This document shows positions 3,646 to 63,200 of a stretch of 64,000 nucleotides of DNA, piece after piece. Source of the stretch: an uncultured Flavobacteriales bacterium (GTDB taxonomy: Bacteria; Bacteroidota; Bacteroidia; Flavobacteriales_G; Salibacteraceae); assembly GCA_905181855.1 (NCBI GenBank), contig CAJIZE010000003.1, positions 1 to 64,000 of the forward strand, given 5' to 3'. The position numbers were made by a program, and so were the translations under genes. The first letter of the stretch is position 1, and the number at the start of each line of letters is the position of its first letter. The notes beneath the pieces are model-generated. The model saw nothing but the letters and a program-made list of their open reading frames with translations. It was not told where the DNA came from and did no database searches.

Positions 3646-4074
3646 TTATTTCCAACCAAAGAACGCATCGTTGCCTCCATAAGAGCCAATGCCTTCATCA
3701 TTTACCATTTTTATTATTAGGGATACCAAATCAATCAAGGTAACAACACCAAATATTCCTCCACATGTTATTATGTAAAACAAAACAAGAATTGGAGAAC
3801 CACCCATATAAACTCTATGAATACCAAGTCCACCGAAAACCAAACAAAGAACAAAAGCAACTAAAACTTCGTCATCAATAGTTGGAGAAAGGTTAAAAGC
3901 TGCTGCAGACATTGCTTCATTTGCTGAAAATGTATTTTTAATTTCAAGAATTGACATTTCTGATGCGTCTTCAATAAGAGCATTAACATTGTCATGGTTT
4001 AAAGTGTAATTCCCTGCAAAAGATACGGAGCAAAAAAGAAAGAAACCGACTAAAAGCGAAAATATTTTTTTCAT
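3646..4074 (-). CDS. TM2 domain protein with signal peptide
   Basis: The 142-residue product begins with a signal peptide (MKKIFSLLVGFFLFCSVSFA). It then has about 50 polar residues and a C-terminal TM2 domain (PF05154) with two membrane helices: VLVAFVLCLVFGGLGIHRVY and a second helix containing FYIITCGGIFGVVTLIDLV. The GGLGIHRVYMG turn and the second-helix aspartate are typical of TM2. These small proteins are common in Bacteroidota and their role is unknown. The gene stands alone, convergent with the YidD unit. Confidence 0.85.
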   Translation of the reverse strand: MKKIFSLLVGFFLFCSVSFAGNYTLNHDNVNALIEDASEMSILEIKNTFSANEAMSAAAFNLSPTIDDEVLVAFVLCLVFGGLGIHRVYMGGSPILVLFYIITCGGIFGVVTLIDLVSLIIKMVNDEGIGSYGGNDAFFGWK

Positions 4075-4233
4075 AGGTTTTTGTTTTTATAATTCAAGTA
4101 ACAATAGTAAATTAACATCCTTTATTCCCGCAAGGTTACTTCAGCCATTTTAATAATACTCGTAATCTAAATATCCATGCAGTAAAATGATTCAATCAGT
4201 TTTATTTTCTAGATACATGGTTTTAGCATGTAT

Positions 4234-4288: not shown

Positions 4289-4903
4289 TTAAAGTGCAAT
4301 AGTTAAACCTCCATTAGCTACGGAACCACCGCCAACACCAATTTCAAGATTCAATCCAACATTTTCTGTAAACATAACTCTCATACCGATAGCTGTTCTA
4401 AAGGCAGGAAATCCTCCACCTGTCCAATCAGCATCAGGTATAAAAAGAGGATCAGTTGAACTAAGGGTCCAGTCGGCAGTTCTGTAACCTATAGAGTTAG
4501 CCCAGTTCATATGAAACTTTTCAGAATCAACAAACTCCCAGCTCGTTCTAATCATAGCTCTTATAATTGTTTGTTGTATAGCATCAGTATAGCTTAAACC
4601 AGTTATACCTCCCACGTAAGTCCTGTCAGCAGTTCTTTTGGTATAGTTCAAATCAAGACCCAACGCAAATTTTGGTTTCACATAATATTGAAACCTTAGG
4701 CCAAGGTTACCCAGAACACTAACGTCAACAGTTTCACCATCAGAAACAGTACTTACTGCTCTAAAAATAATTCCTTGGTGTGGTGGAACTGCATGATATA
4801 AATCAAATTGCATACCACCCTCTTTGTTTTGCGCATCAACTGATGACGTAAAAGAAAATAGAGCACAAATCACTAGTGCTAAGGTTAATAATTGGTTTTT
4901 CAT
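4289..4903 (-). CDS. Small outer-membrane beta-barrel protein
   Basis: The 204-residue protein has a signal peptide (MKNQLLTLALVICALFSFTSSVDA). The rest alternates hydrophobic and polar residues in strand-length blocks ending in aromatics, for example LGLRFQYYVKPKFALGLDLN, and it closes with a beta-signal-like LNLEIGVGGG segment. This matches small eight-strand barrels (OmpA/OmpW-like size) that are frequent in Bacteroidota. No ligand can be inferred. It has its own promoter candidate and terminator, so it is probably separate from the sugar operon that ends just upstream. Confidence 0.72.
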   Translation of the reverse strand: MKNQLLTLALVICALFSFTSSVDAQNKEGGMQFDLYHAVPPHQGIIFRAVSTVSDGETVDVSVLGNLGLRFQYYVKPKFALGLDLNYTKRTADRTYVGGITGLSYTDAIQQTIIRAMIRTSWEFVDSEKFHMNWANSIGYRTADWTLSSTDPLFIPDADWTGGGFPAFRTAIGMRVMFTENVGLNLEIGVGGGSVANGGLTIAL

Positions 4904-4926
4904 AGTTTTTTTTATTGGTTAAGTAA

Positions 4927-4934
4927 CAAAAATA
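4927..4934 (-). promoter_or_regulatory. Candidate -7 element upstream of the barrel gene
   Basis: The minus strand reads TATTTTTG, an exact match to the Bacteroidota TAnnTTTG element, 24 bases before the ATG at 4903. No clear TTG -33 element was found at the usual spacing. Confidence 0.4.
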
Positions 4935-4959
4935 GATTAAAATGCTTTACTCTAGTTGA

Positions 4960-6015
4960 TTAATAGCAATCATTTTTATAATGTTCTTTGTAATAATCTA
5001 AATAACCACCAGAGGTAACATTATTCAACCAGTTTTCATTTTCTAGATACCAGTCAACCGTTTTTGTTAAACCTTCTTCAAATTGCAAGGAAGGCTTCCA
5101 ACCAAGTTCTTTCTCAATTTTAGAAGCATCAATAGCGTAACGTAAATCATGTCCTGCTCGGTCAGTAACGTAAGTGATTAATTTTCCAGAATGACCTGCT
5201 TTACGGCTTAGTTTCTTATCCATCACTTTGCAAAGTAATTTTACTAAATCCATGTTAGTCCATTCGTTATGTCCTCCAATGTTATACGTTTCACCGTTTT
5301 TACCTTCGTTATAAATCAGGTCAATTGCAGAAGCGTGGTCTTCAACAAATAGCCAATCTCTAATATTTTCGCCCTTTCCGTAAATAGGTAAAGGTTTGTT
5401 ATTTTTTATGTTGTTTATACAAAGCGGAAGTAATTTTTCAGGAAACTGAAAAGGACCATAGTTGTTTGAGCAATTTGAAATTACTATTGGCAAGCCATAA
5501 GTATTTTTATATGCTCTTACAAAATGATCCGAACTTGCTTTAGATGCTGAATACGGTGATTTAGGGTCATAAGAGGTATCCTCATAGAAGAAGCCAGTCT
5601 CACCTAAACTTCCATAAACCTCATCAGTAGATATGTGGTAAAAACGTTTGTTTTCAATACTGGCCCAATGTTTCTTACTTGCGTTTAGGAGGTTTACCGT
5701 CCCAAAAATATTTGCCTTAAGAAAAGCCATTGGGTCTTTTATAGATCTGTCAACATGCGATTCAGCAGCAAGATGAATTACACCATCAAATTGATGCTTT
5801 GCAAATAATTCGTCAATAAATTGTTCATTAGTGATGTCTCCCTTAATGAATTCATAATTGTCCTCAGTTTCGATGTCCTCAATATTCTCAAGGTTACCTG
5901 CGTATGTTAAAGCATCGAGATTAAATATTTTTTTGTTCGGATATTTCTTGACAAACAAACGAACAACGTGTGATCCTATAAACCCCGCTCCGCCCGTAAT
6001 CAATATTTTTTCCAT
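4960..6015 (-). CDS. rmlB: dTDP-glucose 4,6-dehydratase
   Basis: RmlB converts dTDP-glucose to dTDP-4-keto-6-deoxyglucose, the branch point to rhamnose and other deoxysugars. The 351 residues show the extended SDR fold: an NAD-binding TGGAGFIGSHVVRLF at residues 7-21, the dehydratase signature HLAAESHVDRS, catalytic STDEVYG (Thr-Asp-Glu), the YSASK Tyr-Lys pair and SNCSNNYGPFQFPEKL. The DE pair after the Thr separates RmlB from simple epimerases. It is the last gene of the minus-strand sugar operon, one base after the TviB-like gene. RmlC, RmlD and RmlA are not in this window, so the end product cannot be fixed. Confidence 0.9.
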   Translation of the reverse strand: MEKILITGGAGFIGSHVVRLFVKKYPNKKIFNLDALTYAGNLENIEDIETEDNYEFIKGDITNEQFIDELFAKHQFDGVIHLAAESHVDRSIKDPMAFLKANIFGTVNLLNASKKHWASIENKRFYHISTDEVYGSLGETGFFYEDTSYDPKSPYSASKASSDHFVRAYKNTYGLPIVISNCSNNYGPFQFPEKLLPLCINNIKNNKPLPIYGKGENIRDWLFVEDHASAIDLIYNEGKNGETYNIGGHNEWTNMDLVKLLCKVMDKKLSRKAGHSGKLITYVTDRAGHDLRYAIDASKIEKELGWKPSLQFEEGLTKTVDWYLENENWLNNVTSGGYLDYYKEHYKNDCY

Positions 6016-11375: not shown

Positions 11376-12152
11376 ATGCGTAAAATGATTAGAACGATAA
11401 GTTCATTATTTTTAGTGACTTTGCTATTTTTTGCCTTTTTCAAAAATAGCGAAGCTCAAGTTAATGTTCAAGATTCGATTATTAAAGTGCCATTGCTGCA
11501 TATTGGGTCTTCGTTGAATTATTCTACAGGTGATTTAACCTCTAGATTCGGTTTTTTTGCTGAATTTGGCGGTGCAATGTTATTTAAAACGAAGAAGAAT
11601 TGGCTACTTGGTCCTGAAATATATTTTCAGTTTGGTGATCGGGTTAAAGAAACAGAAATGTTTGATTACTTAATCATAGAAAATGGAACAGCATTAAATA
11701 TTGGCGGTCGAAATGAAGGAATATTCTTTTATCAAAGAGGGTTTGAAAGCTCATTTAACTTTGGGAAGATTACAAACCTTTTAGCAGTTAATCCAAATTC
11801 AGGTTTAAGGTTTAATGTTGCATGCGGTTTTTGGCAACATAGAATAAAATCTGTTTCCGAAAACCAAGGTATTTTTTTACTTAGAGATGAATATTTGCCT
11901 GGTTATGATCGATTGGTGTCTGGTTTTATTTTTAAACAATTTATAGGGTATCACTATATGGGTGAGAGCAGGCTTGTGAATTTCACAGTAGGATTTGAAA
12001 TGAGTGAAGGATTTACCAAGGGTAGAAGAAACTATCAGTACGATACCAAATTACCAGCTACTGAAAATAGAGTTGAAGGATATTACGGCATCAAGCTTAA
12101 TTGGGTTCTGCCTTTTTATAAAAGATCAACTAGAGAATTTTATACGTATTGA
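11376..12152 (+). CDS. Outer-membrane protein of unknown function, upstream of waaA
   Basis: The chosen ATG gives MRKMIRTISSLFLVTLLFFAFFKNSEA, a normal signal peptide; the frame extends 19 codons further upstream but without export features. The mature region of about 230 residues has strand-length alternating segments with many aromatics (LLGPEIYFQFGDRVKE, FIFKQFIGYHYMGESRLVNF) and ends with YYGIKLNWVLPFYKR, so it is likely a barrel or barrel-associated protein. Its TGA overlaps the ATG of waaA, which suggests co-transcription with lipid A core assembly. It lies divergently from the sugar operon. No specific family recognised. Confidence 0.62.
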   Translation: MRKMIRTISSLFLVTLLFFAFFKNSEAQVNVQDSIIKVPLLHIGSSLNYSTGDLTSRFGFFAEFGGAMLFKTKKNWLLGPEIYFQFGDRVKETEMFDYLIIENGTALNIGGRNEGIFFYQRGFESSFNFGKITNLLAVNPNSGLRFNVACGFWQHRIKSVSENQGIFLLRDEYLPGYDRLVSGFIFKQFIGYHYMGESRLVNFTVGFEMSEGFTKGRRNYQYDTKLPATENRVEGYYGIKLNWVLPFYKRSTREFYTY

Positions 12153-13387
12153 TGCAGTTTTTTTATTCTTTTTCTTTAAAGTTCTATCATTTTTTGATTT
12201 GGTTGATTAGTTTCAAAAATGAGAAAGCGAAAAAATGGATTAATGGTAGGAAAAATGTTTTTGAAAACATTGAATTAAAGAAAGATGATGAATTTGTAAT
12301 CTGGATGCACTGTGCTTCGTTGGGTGAATTTGAACAAGGAAAACCTGTTATTGAAGAATTACTTAAGAAAGTAAATAATTCGTCTTTGATTTTGAGTTTT
12401 TTTTCACCTTCAGGTTATGAATACAAGAAAGATTATCACCAGGCCAAACGCGTACTTTATTTGCCTTTAGATTCAAAACAAAATGCAAGAAAATGGTTCG
12501 ATGCTTTTGAACCAAATATGTTTTTGAGTATTAAGTATGAGATTTGGCCCTTTTATTTGGCTGAAGCAAGAAAACGTAGCATCCCAAGTTTTTTAATTTC
12601 GGCAACCTTTAGAAAAAGCCAAGTGTACTTTTCAATTTTCGGTTCATTTTTTAGGTCATCACTTAAGTGTTTTGAAAACGTTATGGTTCAGGATCAAAGC
12701 TCACTATTATTATTAGAAAAATTTGGAATTGAAAGTGTTGTTACAGGAGATACACGTTTCGATAGAGTAGCAGAGATTAAAAATGAAAAGTTTGAAGACA
12801 ATACCATTAATGACTTTGTTGCTGAAAATGAAAAGGTCGTAGTATTTGGTTCAACATATTCTCAGGAGCATAAATGGATCCAGGGGCTAATTAATAAAAA
12901 GATATCAACGAATTATAAATTCATTATAGCGCCTCATAATCTAGATGAAAATGCTTTAGAGGAATTGGATGAATTGTTTCCTACTGCTTTGAAATATTCA
13001 AATTACCAACAAGAACAAGTTAAAAGCGAAATATTAATTATTGATACCATTGGTTTATTGTCCAGAATATATCGCTATGCTATGCTAGCATACGTAGGTG
13101 GTGGATTTGGTGGAGGCCTTCATAATTCGTTAGAAGCGGTTGCCTATGGGATTCCTGTTTTGGTTGGCCCAAATCATAGAAAGTTTCATGAGGTACAAAC
13201 TTTAATTGATCAAAATGGCATTTTGGAGCTTAAAAACGAAAATGAATTCAACAATAAAATTATCGAAATTTTAAATAGCTCTAAATTATCCTCATCAATG
13301 GGGAATACCAATCGAGATTATACTCATCAAATGAAAGGGGCAACCGAAAAATCGGTTAGTCAAATATTAAATAAACTAAACGTTTAA
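12152..13387 (+). CDS. waaA: 3-deoxy-D-manno-octulosonic acid transferase
   Basis: WaaA (KdtA) transfers Kdo from CMP-Kdo to lipid IVA at the inner membrane. The 411 residues contain an N-terminal hydrophobic anchor (FYHFLIWLIS) and the family motif WMHCASLGEFEQGKPVIEEL with the catalytic glutamate. They also contain FLSIKYEIWPFYLAEARKR, TGDTRFDRV and the donor-binding AYVGGGFGGGLHNSLEAVAY region. The ATG at 12152 shares bases with the TGA of the previous gene; an in-frame TTG just before it is less likely. The last 40 bases are duplicated, with changes, at 15572, downstream of the mltA insert. Confidence 0.92.
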   Translation: MQFFYSFSLKFYHFLIWLISFKNEKAKKWINGRKNVFENIELKKDDEFVIWMHCASLGEFEQGKPVIEELLKKVNNSSLILSFFSPSGYEYKKDYHQAKRVLYLPLDSKQNARKWFDAFEPNMFLSIKYEIWPFYLAEARKRSIPSFLISATFRKSQVYFSIFGSFFRSSLKCFENVMVQDQSSLLLLEKFGIESVVTGDTRFDRVAEIKNEKFEDNTINDFVAENEKVVVFGSTYSQEHKWIQGLINKKISTNYKFIIAPHNLDENALEELDELFPTALKYSNYQQEQVKSEILIIDTIGLLSRIYRYAMLAYVGGGFGGGLHNSLEAVAYGIPVLVGPNHRKFHEVQTLIDQNGILELKNENEFNNKIIEILNSSKLSSSMGNTNRDYTHQMKGATEKSVSQILNKLNV

Positions 13388-13682
13388 TTCACCACTAATT
13401 TCTCGATAAACATCTGGTTTTCTGAGGATGCTTTAATCCAATACATTCCTTTAGATAGACTGTTTATGTTAATTGTTGGATTATTAAAGGTGGTGATTTC
13501 TTTGATCATTTTACCTGATAAATTGAAAACTTGAATTGACTCTAATGCCATTGACGTATTTAAATTTACTTGGCCATTAGTAGGGTTAGGATAAAACCGT
13601 CTTTTTTGCTCTTCAGCCTCAATATTTTGCAATGATGCTCTGGTAAGAACACATGTCACCTTTTATTGCACCAGAAGATCTG
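13347..13682. repeat. Direct repeat copy A: waaA tail plus sorting-domain end
   Basis: This stretch runs from the last 40 bases of waaA through the remnant of a T9SS sorting-domain gene. It matches 15572-15917 in the same orientation and order, with scattered base changes and a deletion of about ten bases near 13645. At protein level 55 of 71 aligned residues of the sorting domain are identical. Together the two copies bracket the mltA gene. Confidence 0.9.
13384..13659 (-). pseudogene. Remnant of a T9SS sorting-domain protein (3' end only)
   Basis: The 91-codon frame consists almost entirely of a type A T9SS C-terminal sorting domain: RFYPNPTNGQVNLNTS, a central FNLSGKMIKEIT strand pair and the terminal MFIEKLVVN. 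It has no signal peptide, and its first 15 codons run into sequence of the intact kelch gene with a frameshifting deletion. The homologous full gene lies at 15608-16816. It is best read as the left-behind 3' end of a duplicated kelch/T9SS gene rather than as an expressed protein. Confidence 0.85.
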
Positions 13683-13878
13683 CACCATTAGTTGGCACTA
13701 AAACTTCATCTTTAAAAAGCGCTAAGAAGTTATCTTAAGGCTCAGCGGATATCAATGTGGTTAATTTGTAATGTTTTCGCTTAAATCTTCTTTCTTAGGG
13801 CTTCTGCATTCAATAATGCTTCGCTGAATGAGGAATTTCAGTGCATTATCTGGAAGTATCACAAGGTAAGTGACATGC

Positions 13879-15033
13879 TTATTTTGGAAGCAGCAAGTAT
13901 AGTTCGCCGTAATGATGTAAAGCGCTCGCTTTAGTTTTGGCTGAAACGCCTATCCCTGTGTAAATGTCGACATGTCCCGCACCTTTAATCGCTGCTCCGG
14001 TATCATGCGCAAAAAGGATCTTCCATTCATATTTCACTAACTCATTCACAGAATTCAAAATAGGTGTTTTACCCACCATTACAGCTCCAAGGGGAACATA
14101 TCTCGTGTCCACCGCAACGGAGTGTGATTCAATTAGAGGGATGTTTGCTGCACCTGTAACGGGCTTGTTAACCGGCTCAAAAAAGGTGTAGGATGGGTTC
14201 GAATACAAAGTCTTGTGAACCTTCTTTGGGTATTTTTCACACCACCCTACGATTGCATCTAAAGAGATTTCATTCGCAGGGATTTCACCCGTTTCAACGA
14301 GGTGTTTTCCTATACTTTTATAGCCGTGCGAATTTTTTCCACCGTATCGTAAAAGTTGTTTTTTACCGTCTGGATACATAATGTAGCCAGAACCCTGAAT
14401 GTGCATAAAATATACTTCGAGTAAGTCGCTGGCCCAAGCTATCTCAAGGTTAAGTCCTTGTAATTGATGACCAGCATCTATTTGTCTGCGACTAGGCATC
14501 GGACCTTCCCATTTTTTGGGAAGGCGATAGAACGGATATTTATAAACAGAATCACGTTTAGCTCGTACTTTTACAATGGGAGTATAGTAGCCCGTGAAAT
14601 GTACATTGCCTTTTCCATCTTCACCTTTTATTTTGTAAGCCACAATTTTGGCATTGAGTTCTTTGGACGACATTTGAGAGCTTAGTTTAAGCGTTTCAAT
14701 TACCTCTATAAATTGATGTTGACTTATTGTCAAGTTTCCATAATTTATAGCACTATTAGAGCGATTATTTAGATGCCTTTGCTGATCAGTGAGGGATGCT
14801 TCTTTAGAAGGAATAAAGTTCGATACAGAATCCCAAGGCAAGGTAGCAGGAGTATATAATGACTTGAGTACGACAGCATTGTAGTTTTTGCCATTCCCCT
14901 GAAAATTGTAACCCTTACCAATCGCAGATTGCCCATAACCACATGCATGAACGATGAGAGCAAAACAAATTATGCTTATAAGCCGCAAGTGTATCAGAAA
15001 ATGAAAAGGACGTAATGGTTGGGAGCAAGGCAT
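13879..15033 (-). CDS. mltA: Membrane-bound lytic murein transglycosylase A
   Basis: MltA cleaves the MurNAc-GlcNAc bond of peptidoglycan, forming 1,6-anhydroMurNAc, from the outer membrane. The 384-residue protein has a hydrophobic N-terminus with a possible lipobox (VHAC), and the MltA domain around GNVHFTGYYTPIVKV and YFMHIQGSGYIMYPDG. Its C-terminal 3D domain shows VDTRYVPLGAVMV and FAHDTGAAIKGAGHVDIYTG, whose aspartates include the expected catalytic acid. It is single-gene, not in an operon, and sits inside a segment flanked by direct repeats, with base composition unlike its neighbours. Horizontal acquisition is likely. Confidence 0.9.
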   Translation of the reverse strand: MPCSQPLRPFHFLIHLRLISIICFALIVHACGYGQSAIGKGYNFQGNGKNYNAVVLKSLYTPATLPWDSVSNFIPSKEASLTDQQRHLNNRSNSAINYGNLTISQHQFIEVIETLKLSSQMSSKELNAKIVAYKIKGEDGKGNVHFTGYYTPIVKVRAKRDSVYKYPFYRLPKKWEGPMPSRRQIDAGHQLQGLNLEIAWASDLLEVYFMHIQGSGYIMYPDGKKQLLRYGGKNSHGYKSIGKHLVETGEIPANEISLDAIVGWCEKYPKKVHKTLYSNPSYTFFEPVNKPVTGAANIPLIESHSVAVDTRYVPLGAVMVGKTPILNSVNELVKYEWKILFAHDTGAAIKGAGHVDIYTGIGVSAKTKASALHHYGELYLLLPK

Positions 15034-15571
15034 AAGGTAAAATTAGCAACCTTTTAGCTATAAACGCTTATATTCTTTGCATCTGAACATAAAGGAATAT
15101 AATATGTGTATTTAACTGTTGCCATTTGGTCGCAATGCATAGAACATTAATCGAACAGAAAAATCAACATGAAAGTTTGCGCACTTATAAGAATATCAGC
15201 AAATTAGAAAGGGCATTTATGGAAATAAATACTTGTTTTTACCGCTCTTTTTGCTTGTCATATTTTTTGCTTTCGCTTTTCTACTAATGTCCCTAATGCT
15301 TGTTTTGTGAACTAATATTATTAGACCAATGGATACACATATTTTCAATAAATGACTTTCATCTGTGTAAATTTTAACTCACAAAGGTCAGATAATACTG
15401 ACGTTTCATGGCTTCTGCTTTAATAACTTATAAATGCTTTGAGATAGCTCTTTAAGATGGTCTTTAAACCAAATACAGCCTCAACAGACTGAGTTTTTTG
15501 ATGGTGTTTCGATGTGTAGAATTATATTTGGATACAATGAAGTAGAGGGGCGTTATCCCCAGGAGATAATT
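15034..15571. other. Gene-free stretch upstream of mltA
   Basis: No frame here looks like a real gene; the best, a 50-codon ATG frame starting near 15136, has no homology I recognise. A short GGGG/CCCC hairpin around CGTTAT lies at 15547-15560, just before the start of repeat copy B. The mltA promoter should lie near 15050-15100, but I see no exact TAnnTTTG element. Confidence 0.5.
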
Positions 15572-15917
15572 AAAATCGGTTAGTCAAAAATTAAATAAAT
15601 CAAACGTTTAATTCACTACTAATTTTTCGATAAACATCTCGTTTTCCGACGATGCTTTAATCCAATATATTCCTTTAGATAAATTGTTTAGATTAATTTT
15701 TAGCTTATTAAAGCAAGTGATTTCTTCAATCATTTCACCTGATAAGTTGAAAAATTGAATTGACCTTGGTGCTATTGACGTATTTAAATTTAGTTGACCA
15801 TTAGTAGGGTTAGGATAAAAAAAAGCTTTTTTCTCTTCAGCCTGAGTATTTTTCAATGATGCTATTGGGCCTAACTGATAAGACCACATGTCACCTTTTA
15901 TGGCACCAGAAGATCTG
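15572..15917. repeat. Direct repeat copy B: waaA tail plus sorting-domain end
   Basis: This copy begins with AAAATCGGTTAGTCAAA, matching the end of waaA but with no waaA gene in front of it. It continues through the 3' end of the intact kelch/T9SS gene. It pairs with 13347-13682. The orphan waaA tail at 15572-15610 is the clearest sign that the junction itself was duplicated. Confidence 0.9.
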
Positions 15918-16816
15918 TTTTCGCCTCCTAAGAAATACACTGTATTATCCAAGGTAAATGATCCTGGCGCCCATCTGCTAATTCCAGGATGTGAGGGTAA
16001 TTGCTCCCAGTCATCATTAAAAGGATCATATTTCCAAAATTCACCTTCGTTCATAAAATTATGGTTATCTCCATCACCGCTCAAAACATATCCATAACCT
16101 CCAAGTGCAAATTGCGTTCCTGCAACTCTGGCTTCACCGGGAAAGTTATTAAGTTTTGTCCAAGTATCGGTATCAATATCAAACTCATACCAATCACTGT
16201 AAATGTTGTTTCCGCCATGGCCCATTCCTGCGTAAATATGGTCGCCTGCAGCAAACATAAATGGATGGTGTCTTACAGGACCAGGTATGTCATTTTCTTG
16301 AGTCCAAGTATCGGTATCTATTTCATAACTCCACCAGTCTTTTAAATTGCCAGAATTACCATCACCTAAACCCACAAAAATTCTTCCTTCTGTAACGATA
16401 AAGGCTGGATGCCTTCTTCCTTCACAAGGGCAAGAGGATAGTTGAGTCCAACTAGAATTTATTGGGTCAAACTCCCAAAGGTCGTTTAAGAAATTAAATT
16501 GATATCCAAAACCCATGTATGCTTTACCATTATAGGCTTGACCGATAGCAAAACTTCTTGCAGCACCGGGAAAGTCGGTTAATTTAGACCATGAGTCATT
16601 CACAGGGTCATATTTGAAGAAGTCTTTTGAAGTTTGACTTGAAGCAGAAGTTCCAGTTACAGAATATCCAAATCCATCGATACCAAAAGTAACTGGGTGG
16701 TGTTTACCGATATTGTTTGGCAAAGAGGATTTTGAGTCCCAAGTTTGAGCAGATAATTGGATGTACCCCAGGAAAAATGGGATTAAGGTAACAATGGAAT
16801 AAATTTTTATCATCAA
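15608..16816 (-). CDS. Secreted kelch-repeat protein with T9SS sorting domain
   Basis: The 402-residue protein has a signal peptide (FFLGYIQLSA), then about six kelch-like blades of roughly 48 residues. Each blade has a variant of FxYDPxxDxWxxLxxFPGxAR, for example DLWEFDPINSSWTQL and WKYDPFNDDWEQLPSHPG, so residues 25-320 should form a beta-propeller. The last 75 residues are a type A T9SS sorting domain (FYPNPTNGQLNLNTS to FIEKLVVN), so the protein should cross the outer membrane by the T9SS. Ligand unknown. Its 3' end is the parent or partner of the remnant at 13384-13659. Confidence 0.88.
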   Translation of the reverse strand: MMIKIYSIVTLIPFFLGYIQLSAQTWDSKSSLPNNIGKHHPVTFGIDGFGYSVTGTSASSQTSKDFFKYDPVNDSWSKLTDFPGAARSFAIGQAYNGKAYMGFGYQFNFLNDLWEFDPINSSWTQLSSCPCEGRRHPAFIVTEGRIFVGLGDGNSGNLKDWWSYEIDTDTWTQENDIPGPVRHHPFMFAAGDHIYAGMGHGGNNIYSDWYEFDIDTDTWTKLNNFPGEARVAGTQFALGGYGYVLSGDGDNHNFMNEGEFWKYDPFNDDWEQLPSHPGISRWAPGSFTLDNTVYFLGGENRSSGAIKGDMWSYQLGPIASLKNTQAEEKKAFFYPNPTNGQLNLNTSIAPRSIQFFNLSGEMIEEITCFNKLKINLNNLSKGIYWIKASSENEMFIEKLVVN

Positions 16817-51280: not shown

Positions 51281-54200
51281 TTGAGTAGAGTGTTTAGTGT
51301 TTTCATTTTAGCAATGGCGTTACTTCTAATGCCTAATGCTAGCGTGGCCCAAAGTGGTAATACTTCATTGGTTTTTACAAATGCAAGTGCAACAGGAAGA
51401 ACGGGGCCAACCCAATCGCAACTGAATACAGCCTATTCAGGAACCGATTTATCAGGAAACGTAACTATTATTACTCAGGGTTTCCAGGAATGGACAGTAC
51501 CTTATACCGGCACTTATTCTATTCAAGCCTTTGGAGCACAAGGAGGAAATGCAGCTTATTCTGGAGGGAAAGGAGCTTCCATTTCAGGTGAGTTTAAATT
51601 GGAATCTGGTGATGTGTTGAAAATAGTTGTTGGTCAAAAGGGAGTCATTTCTAGTAATTCATCTACCAGAGGTTATGCAGCTGGAGGTGGTGGAGGTACT
51701 TATGTTGTTCAATCCCCTTATACTAGTAACTCATCCATACTTGTTATTGCTGGAGGTGGAGGCGGGGGCGGTTCAGGCCCATTAGGTAATAGTACTGATC
51801 AAAATGGACTTGATGGTTCTATTTCAACAAACGGTAATAATGGACTTGGGCCCAATGGATCAACAGGAGGTGTTAATGGGAATGGTGGTTCCGCGGGTTC
51901 CAATTCTGGTAGTTCAAGTGGTGCAGGTTTTATTGGAAACTCCCCGTCTTTTATCGGCTGGGCAGATGGTGCTATATCTTTTGTAAATGGCGCTAATGGT
52001 TCACTCAACAATCAAACGAATAGATCTGATGGAGGTTTTGGTGGTGGTGGTGGTGCAGGTTATGGCGGTGGCGGTGGTGGTGGCTATTCTGGCGGTGGCG
52101 CAGGTCATTTTAACGCTACATATGATTATGGCGGTGGTGGCGGTGGTTCCTATAATTCAGGAACTAACCAAAACAACATTGCTGGTTTTAATATTGGTCA
52201 TGGGAAAGTAGTAATAACACCTGTGATTAATTTAAATAGAATTCAAAATGATACTACTATTAGTTGTGGTGAGTTAGTAACTATTGGTTATAGTTCCATA
52301 AGTGTTACCGATCAATTAAAACTGCATTACCCTATGAATGGAAACGCTGTCGACTACTCATCAAACAAAGTAGATGGTGTAATTACAGGTAGTATTAGTG
52401 GGGTTTTAGATAGGTTTGGTAATACCGCTGGGGCTTTAAATTTTCCAAATAGTACTACCTCTAGAACTTTAATAATAGATAGTGTTGCTCTCTTTAACGG
52501 CACACAAGATTTTACATACTCTTTTTGGATAAGACCAGCTACTTTCACAAGGTATCCAATGTGGTTTCGAAATGGAAAATGGGGCTCTGGTCATAATTTT
52601 GGGGTTAGAAATAACACCACTCTAACGATGAATGGCAATACAGTTGGTTCAGGAACTGTAAGCTTTGTGCCTACTTTAAATAACTGGTCCCATATGGTTA
52701 TAATAAGAAAAGGAGATTCAATTTCTCAATGGTCTAATGGGTTGTTTAGAGGTAATTATACAGCAAACAATAGTAATTGGGGAAATCCATTTTCGCCATC
52801 TAAGCCGATGTATATTGGTTCGGGCGACGCCACATCTGATACTTATTTTAGGGGAGATATGGATGAGTTTGCTTATTACGACAAGGCATTAAATCAAGCA
52901 GAAATAATAGCGCTGTATCAATCTCCTGACCTTACAAAAAACAACTATTTATGGTCTACAGGCGAAACAACACTTACCATTGATGTTTCACCAATTGTTA
53001 CAACTACTTATTACGTAACAATTACTGATGGTATAGCAAGTCGTGCTGATAGTGTTACGATTAGCATTGCGGGCCCTGTTAAGCAAAATATAACAGCAAC
53101 AAATACAGCTATTTGCGATGGTGCTGCAACAACTATTACCACTGCTTCTTCTGAAAGTGGAATGAATTATTCTTTATATGAAACTGCTGGTAACACCTTA
53201 GTTGACGGCCCAACCGCGGGAACAGGTGCTCCACTATCTTTTGTTACAGGCAATTTAACTTCTACCACTAATTTTTATGTTGATGGAGCAACTTCTCAAA
53301 ACTTATCTCCAACTGGAGGAACAGCCTTAGATTTTGATGGAAGTAATGATTATGTAGTATTACCAAGCTCTATAAACAGTCAAATTGCTAATACTATTAC
53401 AATTGAAGGGTGGTTTAACATATCTTCATTGGGCGAAGCTGCAATGCTTGTTGGTGAATCATACTTAGGTGATGGAAATATCGAGTTTATGATATACAAA
53501 CATAATGGGAATCTTAATGCAGGGTTTTTTAATGGGGGGTTCCAAAATAATTCAGCAGCTATGCCAACATTAAATACTTGGGTACATATAGCTGCTACTT
53601 ACAATCAACAAAATATAATAACATATTACAATGGAATTGAGGTGGCGAACACAGCAAAAACACTTTCGCTTCCTGTTGGAACTGAAGAGTGGAGATTAGG
53701 TAGAAGGTGGGATCACAACGAACGACTAGATGGCAAAATGGACGAAGTCCGTATTTGGAATATTGCAAGAACTCAGGCTGAAATTTCGGCTAGCATGTAT
53801 TCTGCTCTAACGGGTTCAGAAGCAGGTTTGGTTGCATACTTCAATTTTGAGGATGGCACAGGAAGCGCAACACTTACCGATAAAACATCAAATAACTATA
53901 ACGGTACCTTATTTGGTATGGATGTGAATTCAGATTGGGTTACAGGTTATGGGCCCTCTGGCTTAGGAACATGTTCAGTTAATTCTGAGACTGTTACGGT
54001 TAGCATTTCGGCTCTTGTTAACCAAAATATAACAGCAACAAATGCATCTGTTTGTTCTGACTCTTCAACAACGGTTACAACAGCTTCTTCAGAAACTGGA
54101 GTAAATTACTCACTATACAATGCTTCTGCAACATTAATAGATGGCCCAACTTCGGGTAATGGTTCAAGCTTATCTTTTAATACAGGGAGCTTAATTGCTG

Positions 54201-57200
54201 CGACTGATTTTTATGTTGCGGGAGCGACTCCTCAAAACTTATCTCCAACAGGAGGAACTGCTTTAGATTTTGATGGGGTAAATGATCATATTATTACTCC
54301 TTTAGATGCTGACTTAGATGTTATGCCAGTTACTACTTGGGAAGCTTGGATTTATCCGACAATTGACGATGCATCTTATAATATGATCATGTCACAAGAA
54401 GATGGAGGTTGGGATCGATTTATTGCAATTAATAGCGGGAAATTTGCGCTTGGGCGTACTATTAATGGATGGGTCCCTCCTGCGCCAATTATTTTGAATA
54501 CATGGCAACATATAGCTGTAGTTTATAGTGGTGCAAATATTAAATTTTACCTAAATGGTGTTGAATTTGTATCAGGAACAACAGAAGGCTCTCATTCATC
54601 ACTCGGTAAATTTACTATAGGCTCCAACCAAGCTGGTACGCAAAATTTTAAAGGAAAAATGGATGAAGTTCGAGTTTGGAATGTAGCAAGAACTCAGGCC
54701 GAGATTTCGGCTAATATGTCTACCTCTCTCACAGGTTCAGAAGCAGGTTTGGTTGCATACTTCAATTTTGAGGATGGCACAGGAAGCGCTACACTTAACG
54801 ATAAAACATCAAATAACTATAACGGTACCTTATTTGGTATGGATGTTAATGCAGATTGGGTGCAAGGATTTGGGGCTTATGGCTCAGGATCCTGTTCAGT
54901 TAATTCGGATACAGTTTCGGTCAGCGTAGACCATATAACTGCCCCGAGTACTACCGGAGCAAATATTTGTGAGGGAACATCAGCACTTATTAACGCTTTC
55001 GGCGGAACTGGATCTCAGGTTTATAAATGGTACGGTGATGCTTACGGTAATAATATCATAGGTATTGGGTCAGGATTTACCTCTCCACCTTTAACAACCA
55101 ATACCACTTACTACGCTGGTTTATCTAATTCGGGGGGAGTCGATACTGTAACCCCGGTTCCACACATTACAGGTTATTCAGGTAATGCAAGAGGGTATTA
55201 TTTTGTAGCGCCTACAGATTTCACCATTACCAGTTTATATGTACCTACTGACGCGGGAGGTATAAATCAAAATATTGCAGTAGTAAGACTTAATGCTGCA
55301 CCTCCTAGTTATTCATCGACTACCAATAATTTCAGTACATTATTTCTGGCTCAAAACAATGCGACAACTGGTTATATTCCTGTTAGCATTAAAATATACG
55401 CAGGAGACATTATAGGTGTCTTGGGGGGAAGGTCTGCGGCAAACAATGCTTCTTACGGTGTGTTTTCGAATATAGCTATTAACGGAATTTCGGCAACTAC
55501 CTATCGATTGGGCATGCAGTTTAATTTATCAACAACTGCACCTCAAAATTTATGGACTGAATCATCTTCATCTAAATCAAGAGTTAACTTTACCTATACT
55601 TCATCATTTAAAACCAACAATTGCAATTCTTCTTTGACAGCAACTTTGGTAACTGTAAACTCACCATCATTCAGCTTTGCGCAAGATACAATTACTGCAT
55701 GCGGTGCTGACTCTGTAAATGTTGACGCAGGTGCAGGATGGGCAAGCTACGCTTGGAGTAATGGTGATGTTACTCAAATTTCTACGATAACATCTTCAGG
55801 AACATATAATGTTACCGTAACAGATGCGAATGGATGTACTGCTGAAGATAGTTTAGTGGTAGGTGTGATTGGTGCAGCCATCATTCAAGGAGATACTACG
55901 ATTTGTAGTAGGGAGTTAGTAACTATTGGTTATAGCTCTATAAGTGTTACCAATCAATTAAAACTGCATTACCCTATGAATGGAAATGCAGACGATTACT
56001 CCCCAAGCAAAGTTGATGGTTTAATTTCAGGAGGTATTAGCGGGGTACCAGATAGATTTGGTAATACTGCGGGGGCTTTAAATTTCCCAAATAGCACTGC
56101 CACTCGAACTTTAATAATAGATAGTGTAGCTCTCTTTAGTGGCACACAAGATTTTACTTACTCCTTTTGGATTAGACCGGTAACTTTTGGCGGATATCCA
56201 AAATGGTTCCAAAATGGAGAGTGGAACAATGGTAATAATTTTGGTATTAGAAATAATAAGCTTCTAATGATGAATAATGTCACGGTAGGTTCTGGTTCGG
56301 TGTCTTTTATCCCTACTTTAAACCAATGGACACATATTGTAATCAGAAGGTCTGGGAGTACTGTTTCTGAATGGGCAAATGGTGGATATCAAGGAGATTT
56401 CACCAACTCTAAAGGTAATGTGTTTTCTCCGTCTCAACCCCTTTTTATCGGGTCTGCTAATATTGGTTCAGGCACATATTACAAAGGTGATATGGATGAT
56501 TTTGCATATTACAATAAAGCATTATCACAAGCAGAAATTACGGCACTTTATCAAAGTCCTGACTATATGAGCTATACTTATTCTTGGTCAACAGGAGAGA
56601 CGACCGCAACCATCAATGTAATTCCTGCCCAAACGACTACTTATTATGTAACAACTACTGATGGGATTAGCTCTTGTACCAATTCTATTAATATAAGAGT
56701 GCTAGATACGCTAGGATTAGACGCAATTGCACAGAATGTTTCGGCATATGCAGACTCAACAGGCCGAGTTTATGTAAATCCTACTGATGTAAACAATGGT
56801 TCAAGTGCAGTTTGTGGAATTGACAATATGTGGATTGGAGACACCGCCATTTATTGTGTAGATGCAGGTGATTTTTGGTTTTTTGCTGAAGATGTAAACG
56901 GAAATATTGACAGCGCTCAATTTACCCTTACCATATTAGATTCAATTAAACCAACTTTAGCATCTGTAAGCGACACAATAATTTACCTTGATGCTAATGG
57001 CGAGGCAGCTGTTTCAATCAACTCAATTGTTGCTTCATCAAACGATAATTGCACCTCAATGTTGACTTTTACAGCTAGCGATACAACGTTCGATTGTACT
57101 GATGATACAGTATTGGTTACATTATCTGCAAGAGATGAAAGTGGAAACGTAAGTTACGATTCACTACTTATTACTATTTTAGATACAATTGCCCCAACGC

Positions 57201-60200
57201 CTTCTGTTCAAGGGGCTATAGTCTATTTAGATGCTTCGGGATATGGAAACTTCAGCGCATTAAATCTTATCTCTGATACAGGTGAAGTTTGCGGCGATGT
57301 AACGATGAGTTTTTCGGATACTTCAATTTCTTGTAGTAATACGATTACAATAGCAAACTGTCCAGCAACTGTTATAAGCACAAATCAGGTATCTAATGGT
57401 ACTTCTGGTACTAATAAAGGTCAAAGTTTTACGTCTATTGAATTTGGTGCAATAGATAAGATTGAATTGCAAGTTTGGCCAACAGGTGCTCCATACCTAG
57501 TTATCCGCGAGTGGGTTTCAGATACGTATGTAAGCGCTTTCAATGGAGCTGTTTTGGCCACTTCAAACACAGCGACCAATATGCCTGCAAACACAAATTG
57601 GTCAGATATGTCAACATTTATATTCGATATACCGGTAATTATAGATTCGAATAAAAAATATGTGATTCAAGTTATGAATGGATCTCCATACGTAAAAATA
57701 CCAGGTACATATGCTGGCGGAGAAGCTTACGAAACAGCAAATCCTTCTTTCGTTAGGGATATGAAATTCAAGGTCTATTCCTGTGGAGTAGGAACCAAAT
57801 CAGTAACAATAACTGATGCCTCTGGAAACAGTGTTACTCAAAAATTTGGATTGGCCGTTCTCGATACAATAGTTCCAATAATATTTGCGGGTAACCAAAC
57901 TGTTTATCTTGACAATTCAGGATTTGCCTACCTAGATGTTTTAAATGTTGATAGCGCTTCTTTTGATAATTGTACTCTTGATTCAATTTGGCTTTCTGCC
58001 GATACCTTTACTTGTGGTACATCAGGGAATTACACACTGTTCGGAACTGATGGCGCAGGCAATCAATCATCAGATCAATTCTACGTTGCTGTTTTGGATA
58101 CAATATCGCCAACATTGATTGTTCGAGATACTACAATTTATTTAAATATGGCAACAGGAACTGCCTCTTTAGCTTGGAAGGGCTTAGTGTTAGATACTTT
58201 AGATAATTGCTCAATTGATTCAGTAATTTCTTTACAGCTGAGCTCAAGTGTTAATCTAAAATATGCTTGTGCTGATACCGGAATACATCAAGTATCATTT
58301 AGAACTGTTGATAATTCCGGTAATTCTACTACTGTGGTTTCAAACGTTACTGTTTTAAATACAACTTGTACACCGCCGGTTGCAATTGCTGATACTTTTA
58401 GTTTCGATGAAACAACAACTTTAATTTCACTAACTGCAATCGGTTATGATGTTGATTCCGTAAATGGAGATTCAATTTATTTCAATGCGTATTCAGGAAA
58501 CGGATTATCCATTTTAGATTTTAATGCTGAAACAGGTCACATTGAGTTTAGTGCAAACAACCGTTTTGATTTTGAGGTTGATTCACAATTGGTAATTAAA
58601 TATGAGGTTGTTGACCGAATGGGGAACGTAGATTCAGCAAATGTTGTTATCAACGTAATTAACCTAGTAGAACAAGTTTACGCAGGTTATGGTAACGCTT
58701 TATCGTTTGATAATATTGATGATCAAGTTACCTTACCAATTGATTTATCATTCAATACTACTGAATTTTCAATAGAGGCATGGGTATATTGGACGGGATC
58801 AACAAATGATATTGATTACATTTCAGGAAAAGGTTTTGGCCAATATGAACTTCATACCGGAGGTACTTCAGGGAGCAACAGCATAAGGTTTATTCCTACA
58901 GATCAGGTTTGGATTGATGCTCCTACAGGAAGCTTTTTGCCAAACAAATGGAACCATTTAGTTGGAGTATACAATCCTTCAGTTTCTTTAGGCAAGGTTT
59001 ATATAAATGGATTAGATGTTGGAGCTATTAGTAATGGCGTTAATGGACTTTCAACCGCAGTTGTAAATACAACTAGTGATGTAATTATTGGTAGAAGGGC
59101 GAATGGCGACTTTCCTTTTAATGGGAACATTGATGAGTTTAAACTGTGGAATAAGGCATTAACAGCAAAAGAAGTTTCTCAATCCTATTTATTAAGATCA
59201 AATCAAAACGAAATCAATTTAGTTGCTTATTTGAATTTTGACAACCAGTGGGAAGATTTTGATAACATTGCTTCATTAGATTATGGGCAAGGCATATTCT
59301 CTCAAGGATCAACAACTTTTGTTGAATCTTACAATCCATTTAATTATGAAATTGGCGAAAGATTACCAATCGGCGATACGGTTTCATTTGGTTTGGCTTG
59401 GGATGCAGATTCGAACAACATTACGTTTAGCAAATTTGCTGGAGACACAAGTCAGTTTGATATTGATTCACAAACAGGTGCAATTACAGTAGGTATTAAT
59501 TCTAATCTTGATTACGAAAATGACCCCTTGTTAATTTTTACCTATCAGGTTCATGAGGATGGCGATAATCAAACCGATACTGCTTCAATAAAAGTTAGCT
59601 TGTTAGATGAAAATGACCGACCAGTCTTTAGCGATGTTACAAACATTATAAGTCAAATAATTTGTGCTTCAGATTTTAACCCAACCTTTAATTTCGAAGT
59701 TCATGATGACGATCCAGGTGATACAAGTTTTTTGTCAGTCTGGGCTATAACAAGCAACCAATTATTAATAGATTCGAATACCATTTTCATTCAAGGTTCG
59801 AACACAGCAAGAAGCATTTCATTTAATCCAACATATGTTGACTCAGGATTAGTTGATATTAAAATATATGTTCAAGATCCATCTGGTGCAATAGACAGTA
59901 CAGTCTTTATTGTTTACGTTCAACCAACTTATTATACCTACGACACGGTAAGCGTTTGTTTATGGGACAACATTACTGTAAACGGAAACAGTTATTCTTA
60001 TTCTACCGGCACTGTAGTTGATTCTTTAAACACAAACTTTGGTTGCGATAGCGTTGTTCAAACGTTTATTCACATTGATAGTTTATTGAATCCTTCGGTA
60101 ACTGCCAATGTATTTATGTGTGAAGATTCAGTTGCAACTTTAACCATTGCTTCTGCTGAGTTTGGAGTGAGGTATCAATTGATTGATGTTAATACATCTG

Positions 60201-63200
60201 CAAACATTGATACTGCTTACCTTGGAACCGGGGCAGACATTAATATACTTATTCCAATTACCGATACAACTACCATAGCAGTTTCCGCGACAGGTAGTTA
60301 TTCAGCAGGTGTTTGTGGAAGAATATTATCAGATACAGTTACCATTAATTACGTACCGAATGTGTTGCCAACAATTACATTGTTATCTTCAGATACCATT
60401 TGTTTTTATGATTCTTTGGTATTGAGTAGTAATTATTATAGTAATAATTTATGGTCTAATGGAGCAACAGCTCAATCAATTACAGTAAGCGATTCAGGGA
60501 TTTATTCACTTTCCGTAACGACTGATGGAATTTGTCCGGTCACCATTTACGATACTATCTATCATCATGTATTACCAGTCGATGCAACAGCAACCGCACC
60601 AACCGAAGTTTGTTGGGGAGACACTTCAAATATTTCAATTGCAAACTCTGAAATAGGCACTGATTATTACTTGTATTTTGAACAAGGCAGCACAGTAATA
60701 GATGGCCCAATTTCAGGAAATGGTTCAACCATTGATTTTAGTTTTGGACCATTTACTCAAGACACAACATTCCAACTTCATGCGCAAAACAGAAACTGTG
60801 AAATTATTTTAACCGACAAACCTACGGTTCAAGTTAATCCTTTACCTGTGGTTACAGTTCACAACGATACCAACATGAGTCCGGTTGATACCATCCAAAT
60901 TTGGGCTGATGGAGGTTCCACTTATTTATGGAGTGATGGCCAAACAGGCGATACAATTTCAATAACTCCTGATACAAACATTACGTATTACGTAACTGTA
61001 ACAAGTGCCAAAGGGTGTAATCAATACGACTCGGTTTATATTCTATTAAATACGTTCCCAACCTTAAATGATACCTTAATTTCAATTAATGAAAACCCGG
61101 TTAATGGTTCTTTTATTGGAAACTTATTAGGGTTTGACAGTGACGCAAACGATACGCTTAGTTATCAAATTATTAGTGGAAATGTTGCGAATTACACTTT
61201 ATTAGATGGCGGAAAACTTTACGTTGCTACTCCGTTGGCTATTGATGTAGAAACCAATCCATTTGATACTATTTATGTTCGAGTAACAGACGATGGTGAT
61301 CCTATGTTATCTGATTCAGGAAGAGTGGTAATCAGAATACTTGACCTTAACGAGAAGCCGGTCATTGTAACTGATACCTTCTTAATTGATGAAAATTCGG
61401 TTAATGGATTATTCGTAGGAACTGCAAATAGCATCGATGTAGATACGTTGACTAGTTTTAGTTACACAGTAATTGGTGGAGCAAATACAACGTTTGAAAT
61501 AAATCCAACAACCGGAGCTATCACAGTAAAAGATTCAACTTACTTGGATTTAGAAACAACGGAAACATTTGAATTAGTAGTAGAAGTATCAGATGGCGGA
61601 TTGGTTGCAGATTTATATGACACAACTGCCTATGTAATCAACTTAAACGATATCAACGAAAAACCAATTATAGGCGATTCTACATTCGTAATAAATGAAA
61701 ATGCTCCTCAATCAGACACTATTGGAACCATGTATGCTGTTGATGTTGACGTAAATACGTCATTCAGATATGTATTGTATGGAGGCGATGTATCAGCAAT
61801 AGGCATTTCAACCAATGGTATATTAACCATAAAAGATTCAGCTCAATTTAGTTATGAGAATAGGGCATTCTTTGAAGTCGATATGGTTGTTTTTGATGGT
61901 GGCTTATCGCCTGAAATGTCTGATTCTGCCAAAATTAGAGTTAACATAATCGATCTTAATGAAAAACCAATTCTAAACGATAGTTTATTTACAATAATTG
62001 AAAACAGTCCAAATGGTGATTATCTTGGAACTGTATTAGCTACCGATGTTGACTCAACCAAATCGTTTAATTATACCTTAATTGGAGGAGATACTTCTGC
62101 AATCGAAATGGATCTTAACGGAGTGTTGACCATAAAAGATTCTGTGCAGTTTAGTTATGAGAACAGAGCTTACTTTGAGGTAGATATTGAAGTAACTGAT
62201 GGCGGAATTGCTCCTGAAATGATAGATACATCAACAGTAAGAATAAACGTTATCGATGTTAACGAAAAACCTGTTTTAATTGTAGATTTATTCACTATTG
62301 ATGAAAACTTAAGTAACACTACAATAATAAATACCATTGTTGCCACCGATGTTGATTCAACTCAAACATTAACCTATGCAATTCTTGAAGGTGCAGATAC
62401 GGCATTTGCAATATCAACAAATGGAGTTGTTTCTGTTTTGAATGAAAACTATTTAGATTTCGAAAAAACGACTTCTTTCAACATAAATGTTCAAGTTGCT
62501 GATGGCGGAATAGATTCAATTAAGTACGACACTTTAGTTTACACGATTAACCTTAATGATATAAACGAAAAACCTGAAGTAATCAGCGTTATTTCCTTTT
62601 TAGTTAACGAAAACCAACCAAATGGCAATGTACTAGGAACTATAACTGCTCAAGATCAAGACATTATAACCAACTTTAAATATACTTTATACAGTGGAGA
62701 TATTAATGCTGTTTCGATTGACTCTATCACAGGTATTCTATCAATTAAAGATGTTACTCAATTTGATTTTGAAACAAATACTTCATTTGTGGTGAACTTG
62801 GTAGTTGAAGATGGAGGTTTAATTCCTGAAATGAAGGATTCTTCGATTATTACAATTAACGTTCTTGATATTAATGAAAAACCAATTGTTTACGATTCGA
62901 TTTTCTCAATTAACGAGAATATACCAAACGGAACATCATTAGGTTTTGTGGCTTCTTCTGATGTGGATGCTGTTCAGAATATTCAATATTCATTAATTGC
63001 AGGTAATGTTAATTTAATGAACATTGACGCATCTACAGGCGAGCTTACCGTTTCGAATAGTTCAGCATTTAATGTTGAAGCAGATACGGCATTTGTGGTA
63101 GATGTTAGAGTAACTGATGGTGGTCTAACTCCAACAATGAACGACACGGCTACAATTAAGGTGAAAATTAAAGATTTGAATGAACACCCTGTAATTAGTT

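Follow-up and report, generated by a model that had tools for sequence, protein, structure and literature searches.

The window, that is, the whole 64,000-nucleotide stretch of DNA that was analyzed, belongs to a 131.8-kb contig (C3) of a metagenome-derived genome assembly that is 55% complete and comprises 1.43 Mb in 33 contigs. Its gene content and its relatives place the genome in the class Bacteroidia. The locus described here lies between two intact convergent genes, one for a KDO transferase and the other for a kelch-repeat protein, and has the following features.

12149 to 13387, plus strand: waaA (KDO transferase), intact (Pfam Glycos_transf_N, 3e-39); its final 40 bp make up the left portion of R1
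13348 to 13682: R1, the first copy of the waaA/kelch junction, joined to the intact waaA; direct repeat with 15572 to 15917
13384 to 13638, minus strand: Por_Secre_tail remnant in an open frame, N-terminal cargo missing (Pfam, 62.8 bits)
13683 to 15571: unique insert separating the R copies, 1,889 bp long, with a single match in its own genome
13683 to 13878: non-coding stretch downstream of mltA, all six frames broken
13879 to 15033, minus strand: mltA, lytic murein transglycosylase A, with a lipoprotein-type signal (VHAC) (Pfam MltA, 2.8e-39; 3D, 1.3e-14)
15034 to 15571: 538-bp AT-rich non-coding stretch upstream of mltA (GC 0.318), all frames broken
15572 to 15611, plus strand: orphan waaA tail (KSVSQKLNKSNV and a stop), differing from R1 at 3 of 40 bp, each time by a replacement change
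15572 to 15917: R2, the second copy of the junction, joined to the intact kelch gene; direct repeat with R1
15608 to 16816, minus strand: kelch-repeat protein with a C-terminal T9SS sorting domain, intact, ending in R2 (Pfam Kelch, Por_Secre_tail)

R1 and R2 have the same orientation and are offset by 2,224 bp. Over a repeat length of about 340 bp, 291 of 335 aligned bases are identical, with 44 mismatches and one 11-bp gap, a divergence of about 14%. Each copy contains the final 36 to 40 bp of waaA and the 3' end of the convergent kelch/T9SS gene, and the stop codons of the two genes overlap inside the repeat. A preliminary description of this DNA had reported such a junction twice, directly repeated about 2.2 kb apart with many differences between the copies, and this was confirmed, with coordinates that proved correct to within one base. 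Self-BLAST of the contig (E ≤ 1e-6, the adhesin repeat region at 51281 to 72000 being excluded from the listing) gave only one other pair outside the adhesin, a 71% match, and thus the R1/R2 repeat is not a chance similarity. That other pair (4067 to 4216 and 4896 to 5050) is a direct repeat with copies 680 bp apart, located near the starts of two adjoining minus-strand genes. The adhesin is a giant repetitive T9SS protein encoded by one open frame of about 5,331 amino acids, which runs from 51281 to 64000 and continues to approximately 67.2 kb on the contig; it has several internal direct repeats (72 to 86%). A third copy of R was not found in the assembled genome, nor at length in 34 family genomes.

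Both genes that meet at the junction are represented twice, once as a whole gene and once as a detached end. The waaA gene itself has homologs in 58 of 60 relatives. Its orphan tail in R2 is 12 codons long and reads KSVSQKLNKSNV before the stop, the same part of waaA being KSVSQILNKLNV and a stop, with two amino acid replacements, I to K and L to S. In R1, the sorting-domain remnant spans 85 codons and is cut at 13682, and an 11-bp deletion causes a frameshift upstream of the domain. The orphan tail and broken remnant that had been put forward as direct evidence of duplication are therefore both present.

The insert contains a single gene, mltA, which is intact. Its product scores 259.7 bits against the NCBIfam model PRK11162.1 (murein transglycosylase A; cut-off, 242) and matches the structure of E. 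coli MltA (2gae) with an E value of 7.5e-56. As in the E. coli enzyme (PDB 2gae and 2ae0), MltA and 3D domains are found, here over residues 81 to 381, and a catalytic-site Asp is retained, which we take to be catalytic from its correspondence to D308 of E. coli MltA; unlike that enzyme, the protein has its closest relatives among Bacteroidia sequences, at about 44% identity. Based on the family score above the cut-off, the structural match, and the retained Asp, the protein is probably active, and we infer that the gene is expressed. A Bacteroidota-type promoter (TAnnTTTG) was sought upstream of mltA and was not found.

The mltA gene is foreign, as shown by its odd composition and patchy distribution. 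As the preliminary description had indicated from base composition, the gene stands apart from its surroundings, ranking first for both GC content and codon oddness among the 80 genes of the contig, and first for codon oddness among 553 genes in the 839 kb of the genome examined. The tetranucleotide composition of the whole insert is ordinary (66th percentile), the oddness being confined to the coding part. MltA was not found in the genus-mate (G001, 97% complete), and it occurs in only 2 of the 35 genomes from the family and, in a search that succeeded on control genomes, in only 3 of 395 from the class. The conclusion that mltA is foreign rests on its codon oddness, its absence from the genus-mate, and its rarity in the class. 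Among the relatives of another genome, G179, 27 of 120 have MltA, nearly all of them in one family of the same class (f65). About a quarter of the genomes of that family encode the protein, and it is nearly absent elsewhere in the class. In a tree of MltA sequences, the window protein fell near the base of the f65 sequences, with 42 to 44% identity to the nearest of them and its placement unresolved. The tree did not point to a particular donor, which was probably a member of the class that carries MltA of this type. The three genes that follow mltA in codon atypicality all lie within 19 kb on another contig (C2, 53310 to 72107), perhaps as a small island.

The preliminary description had also noted that mobile-element genes are lacking, and indeed no recombinase gene or remnant was found in the insert by Pfam searching and six-frame reading. 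It had proposed looking for the same mltA segment elsewhere; there is no second mltA in the assembled genome and no DNA match to it in phage and plasmid records. A protein search of those records returned only ordinary, distant MltA genes, with none from viral contigs, and the R-insert-R DNA had no match there. These results bear on whether the locus is the remnant of a site-specific element that inserts where these genes end and brings replacement 3' ends with it, as some phages and islands do. Such an element would explain why both target genes have complete 3' ends despite the insert between them. However, neither a recombinase gene nor a phage or plasmid match accompanies the insert, R is absent elsewhere in the assembled genome and the family, and no other occupied site is seen, and we regard this origin as very improbable. 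Even less credence is given to a chimeric assembly of two co-occurring strains. The genome is metagenome derived, incomplete, and fragmented, and the two R copies could represent alleles of the strains, but the joins at either end of the insert (13682/13683 and 15571/15572) fall beyond the repeat, which makes an assembly chimera unlikely; the shared words that it would need were not seen, and there is no run of N.

The genus-mate provides the closest comparison for the junction itself. It keeps the waaA neighborhood, consisting of ugd, a DegT aminotransferase, an outer-membrane protein, and waaA, and its WaaA is about 45% identical to that of the window. There, the gene convergent with waaA is deoxyhypusine-synthase-like, and the ortholog of the kelch gene (51%) is on another contig, such that waaA and kelch are not adjacent. 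The waaA/kelch junction thus appears to be young relative to the genus, and from the absence of the adjacency in the genus-mate it follows that both R copies descend from an adjacency that the only genus-mate compared does not have. If one R copy is external, it came from a relative closer than all of the genomes compared. The preliminary description had proposed that an old in-place tandem duplication would be the likelier history if the two copies were far closer to each other than to any other sequence. They are, but this does not discriminate between the histories when the nearest genome is only about 45% identical in waaA.

The locus is most likely a horizontal insertion scar, probably produced by one insertion event; the scar is real and of a kind already known. 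For its origin, we give an even chance to the possibility that the foreign mltA arrived on DNA with its own diverged copy of the junction and that recombination with the resident junction gave the order waaA-R1-mltA-R2-kelch. The junction on the incoming DNA would already have been diverged when it met the resident copy. Exactly this product would result in one step from a single (Campbell-type) crossover with a circular molecule, or from the equivalent event with a linear one, and both flanking genes would stay whole because their convergent stop codons overlap inside R. Single crossover is a known recombination process and fits the arrangement; that the two copies have their origin in different genomes, and that such a crossover joined them, we infer. 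As in Campbell-type insertion-duplication, a direct repeat of the target stands on both sides of the insert and the flanking genes are whole; unlike it, the copies here are about 14% diverged, and there are no vector or replicon genes. Several observations count against incoming DNA, namely, a dN/dS value of 0.51 between the copies together with a decay-like orphan waaA tail, the mere 340 bp of chromosomal junction that a circle would carry, and the presence in the same genome of a truncated, 87%-identical near-duplicate without a foreign insert. A further-reaching version would have small, non-replicating circles of one junction plus cargo moving between strains by host recombination alone, with no recombinase, the unit still being able to loop out between R1 and R2; we consider this unlikely.

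The truncated near-duplicate is located on another contig (C2, 89991 to 100160), where two large secreted genes of 1,506 and 1,680 amino acids (L212 and L213) stand in tandem. They are followed by a 608-bp remnant that shares 87% identity with the beginning of the second gene, with three indels and a dN/dS value of 0.19. The remnant is a third copy that seems to have been functional for a long time and to have died recently, and no foreign insert is associated with it.

The main alternative is that the junction, or the waaA tail with the whole kelch gene, was duplicated in tandem in place, that mltA entered between the copies, either simultaneously or afterwards, and truncated the first kelch copy, and that the copies diverged where they are. 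We consider this possible but doubtful. It accords with the R copies being mutually nearest among known relatives, with the near-duplicate just described, and with replacement changes in the orphan waaA tail, which look like decay in place. It also accords with the sorting-domain dN/dS, since a value of 0.51 is about that of one free and one constrained copy. The differences between the R1 and R2 domains are distributed 15/9/14 by codon position. In functional orthologous sorting domains (26 pairs from two close species pairs), the pooled dN/dS is 0.18 to 0.30 and about 54% of the differences are at third codon positions. Only 2 of the 26 pairs exceed 0.51, both with few synonymous changes, and the excess of the R1/R2 value against the first 14 pairs has a P of approximately 0.014. 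A good part of the divergence thus looks relaxed, as expected after truncation.

The domain scores point in the opposite direction, and the use of either dN/dS alone or domain score alone as proof of one history was dropped for that reason. The R1 remnant is the top-scoring Por_Secre_tail among all those found in the two genus genomes, with 62.6 bits versus 57.7 for the R2 domain of the intact gene; with a model built from 25 other sorting domains, the scores were 66.4 for R1 versus 60.7 for R2, and replacement differences between the copies split 12 to 9 in favor of R1. When R1 was simulated as dead since duplication, it was expected to fall 11 to 22 bits below R2, but it was observed 5.7 bits above (P, 0.003 to 0.05). 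Joint simulation of score and dN/dS gave 0.001 to 0.012 for a remnant that was neutral from the start, 0.02 to 0.03 for partial relaxation, and 0.01 to 0.12 for symmetric constraint at w values of 0.3 to 0.7, with near zero at a w of 0.15. The joint fit is about ten-fold better for roughly symmetric divergence than for a remnant neutral from the start, a ratio to be taken only as a guide, given that the domain profile behind the simulations is small and their ancestor unknown.

In-place duplication with immediate decay of the remnant is therefore disfavored. Duplication of a whole kelch gene that worked for a time would also explain the good domain score of R1, but no longer duplicated unit was traced, and the flanks of the insert resemble nothing in the rest of the contig. 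On the best reading, both sorting domains were in use, either in different genomes or in two full-length genes, while much of the divergence arose, and some drift followed, as a dN/dS of 0.51 is above nearly all functional orthologous domains. Domain scores and simulations moderately favor the single-crossover integration put forward in the preliminary description, which stands in part: the diverged copies and the R-insert-R geometry are as it expected, and the dead-remnant alternative fits less well; the crossover step itself is our interpretation.

A similar product could come from linear DNA by homology-facilitated illegitimate recombination, in which one end pairs within R, the other is joined in the absence of homology, and R is duplicated via exchange with a sister chromosome. 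This is a known result of transformation with partly homologous DNA, and it has been proposed for the effector modules of V. cholerae, in which cut-off 3' ends of old genes lie beside new inserts (PMC5361080). The type VI secretion system (T6SS) immunity arrays of that organism (PMC5361080) resemble the present locus in having a foreign gene next to a cut-off resident 3' end, on the chromosome and without mobile-element genes; they differ in that the 5' part of the old gene is displaced there, whereas both resident genes are whole here. Merodiploids, likewise, arise when short fragments that bear a repeat undergo interchromatid integration (PMC3784515). In such transformation-generated merodiploids (PMC3784515), incoming repeat-bearing DNA also causes a duplication, but there it is 100 to 900 kb of resident DNA between existing repeats that is duplicated, and here a 340-bp repeat encloses a foreign middle. 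Homology-facilitated illegitimate recombination is an improbable source of this locus, as the illegitimate join must occur on the anchor's wrong side, such that a second chromosome is needed, and no microhomology is evident at either edge. The linear-DNA and circle routes are indistinguishable by sequence alone.

The locus is thus a well-preserved but ordinary insertion scar, a foreign gene between two copies of the target sequence. What sets it apart is how well both orphan ends are preserved and where it lies, at the overlapping ends of convergent genes, a place where an insertion carries no cost. Foreign genes without mobile-element signatures mostly leave no record of their arrival, and the diverged flanking copies here keep one. 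Should R1 and R2 prove to stem from separate lineages, the locus would be a natural example of homologous recombination capturing a single gene where convergent genes end, and if the small circles described above do exist, single genes may spread as "repeat plus cargo" units.
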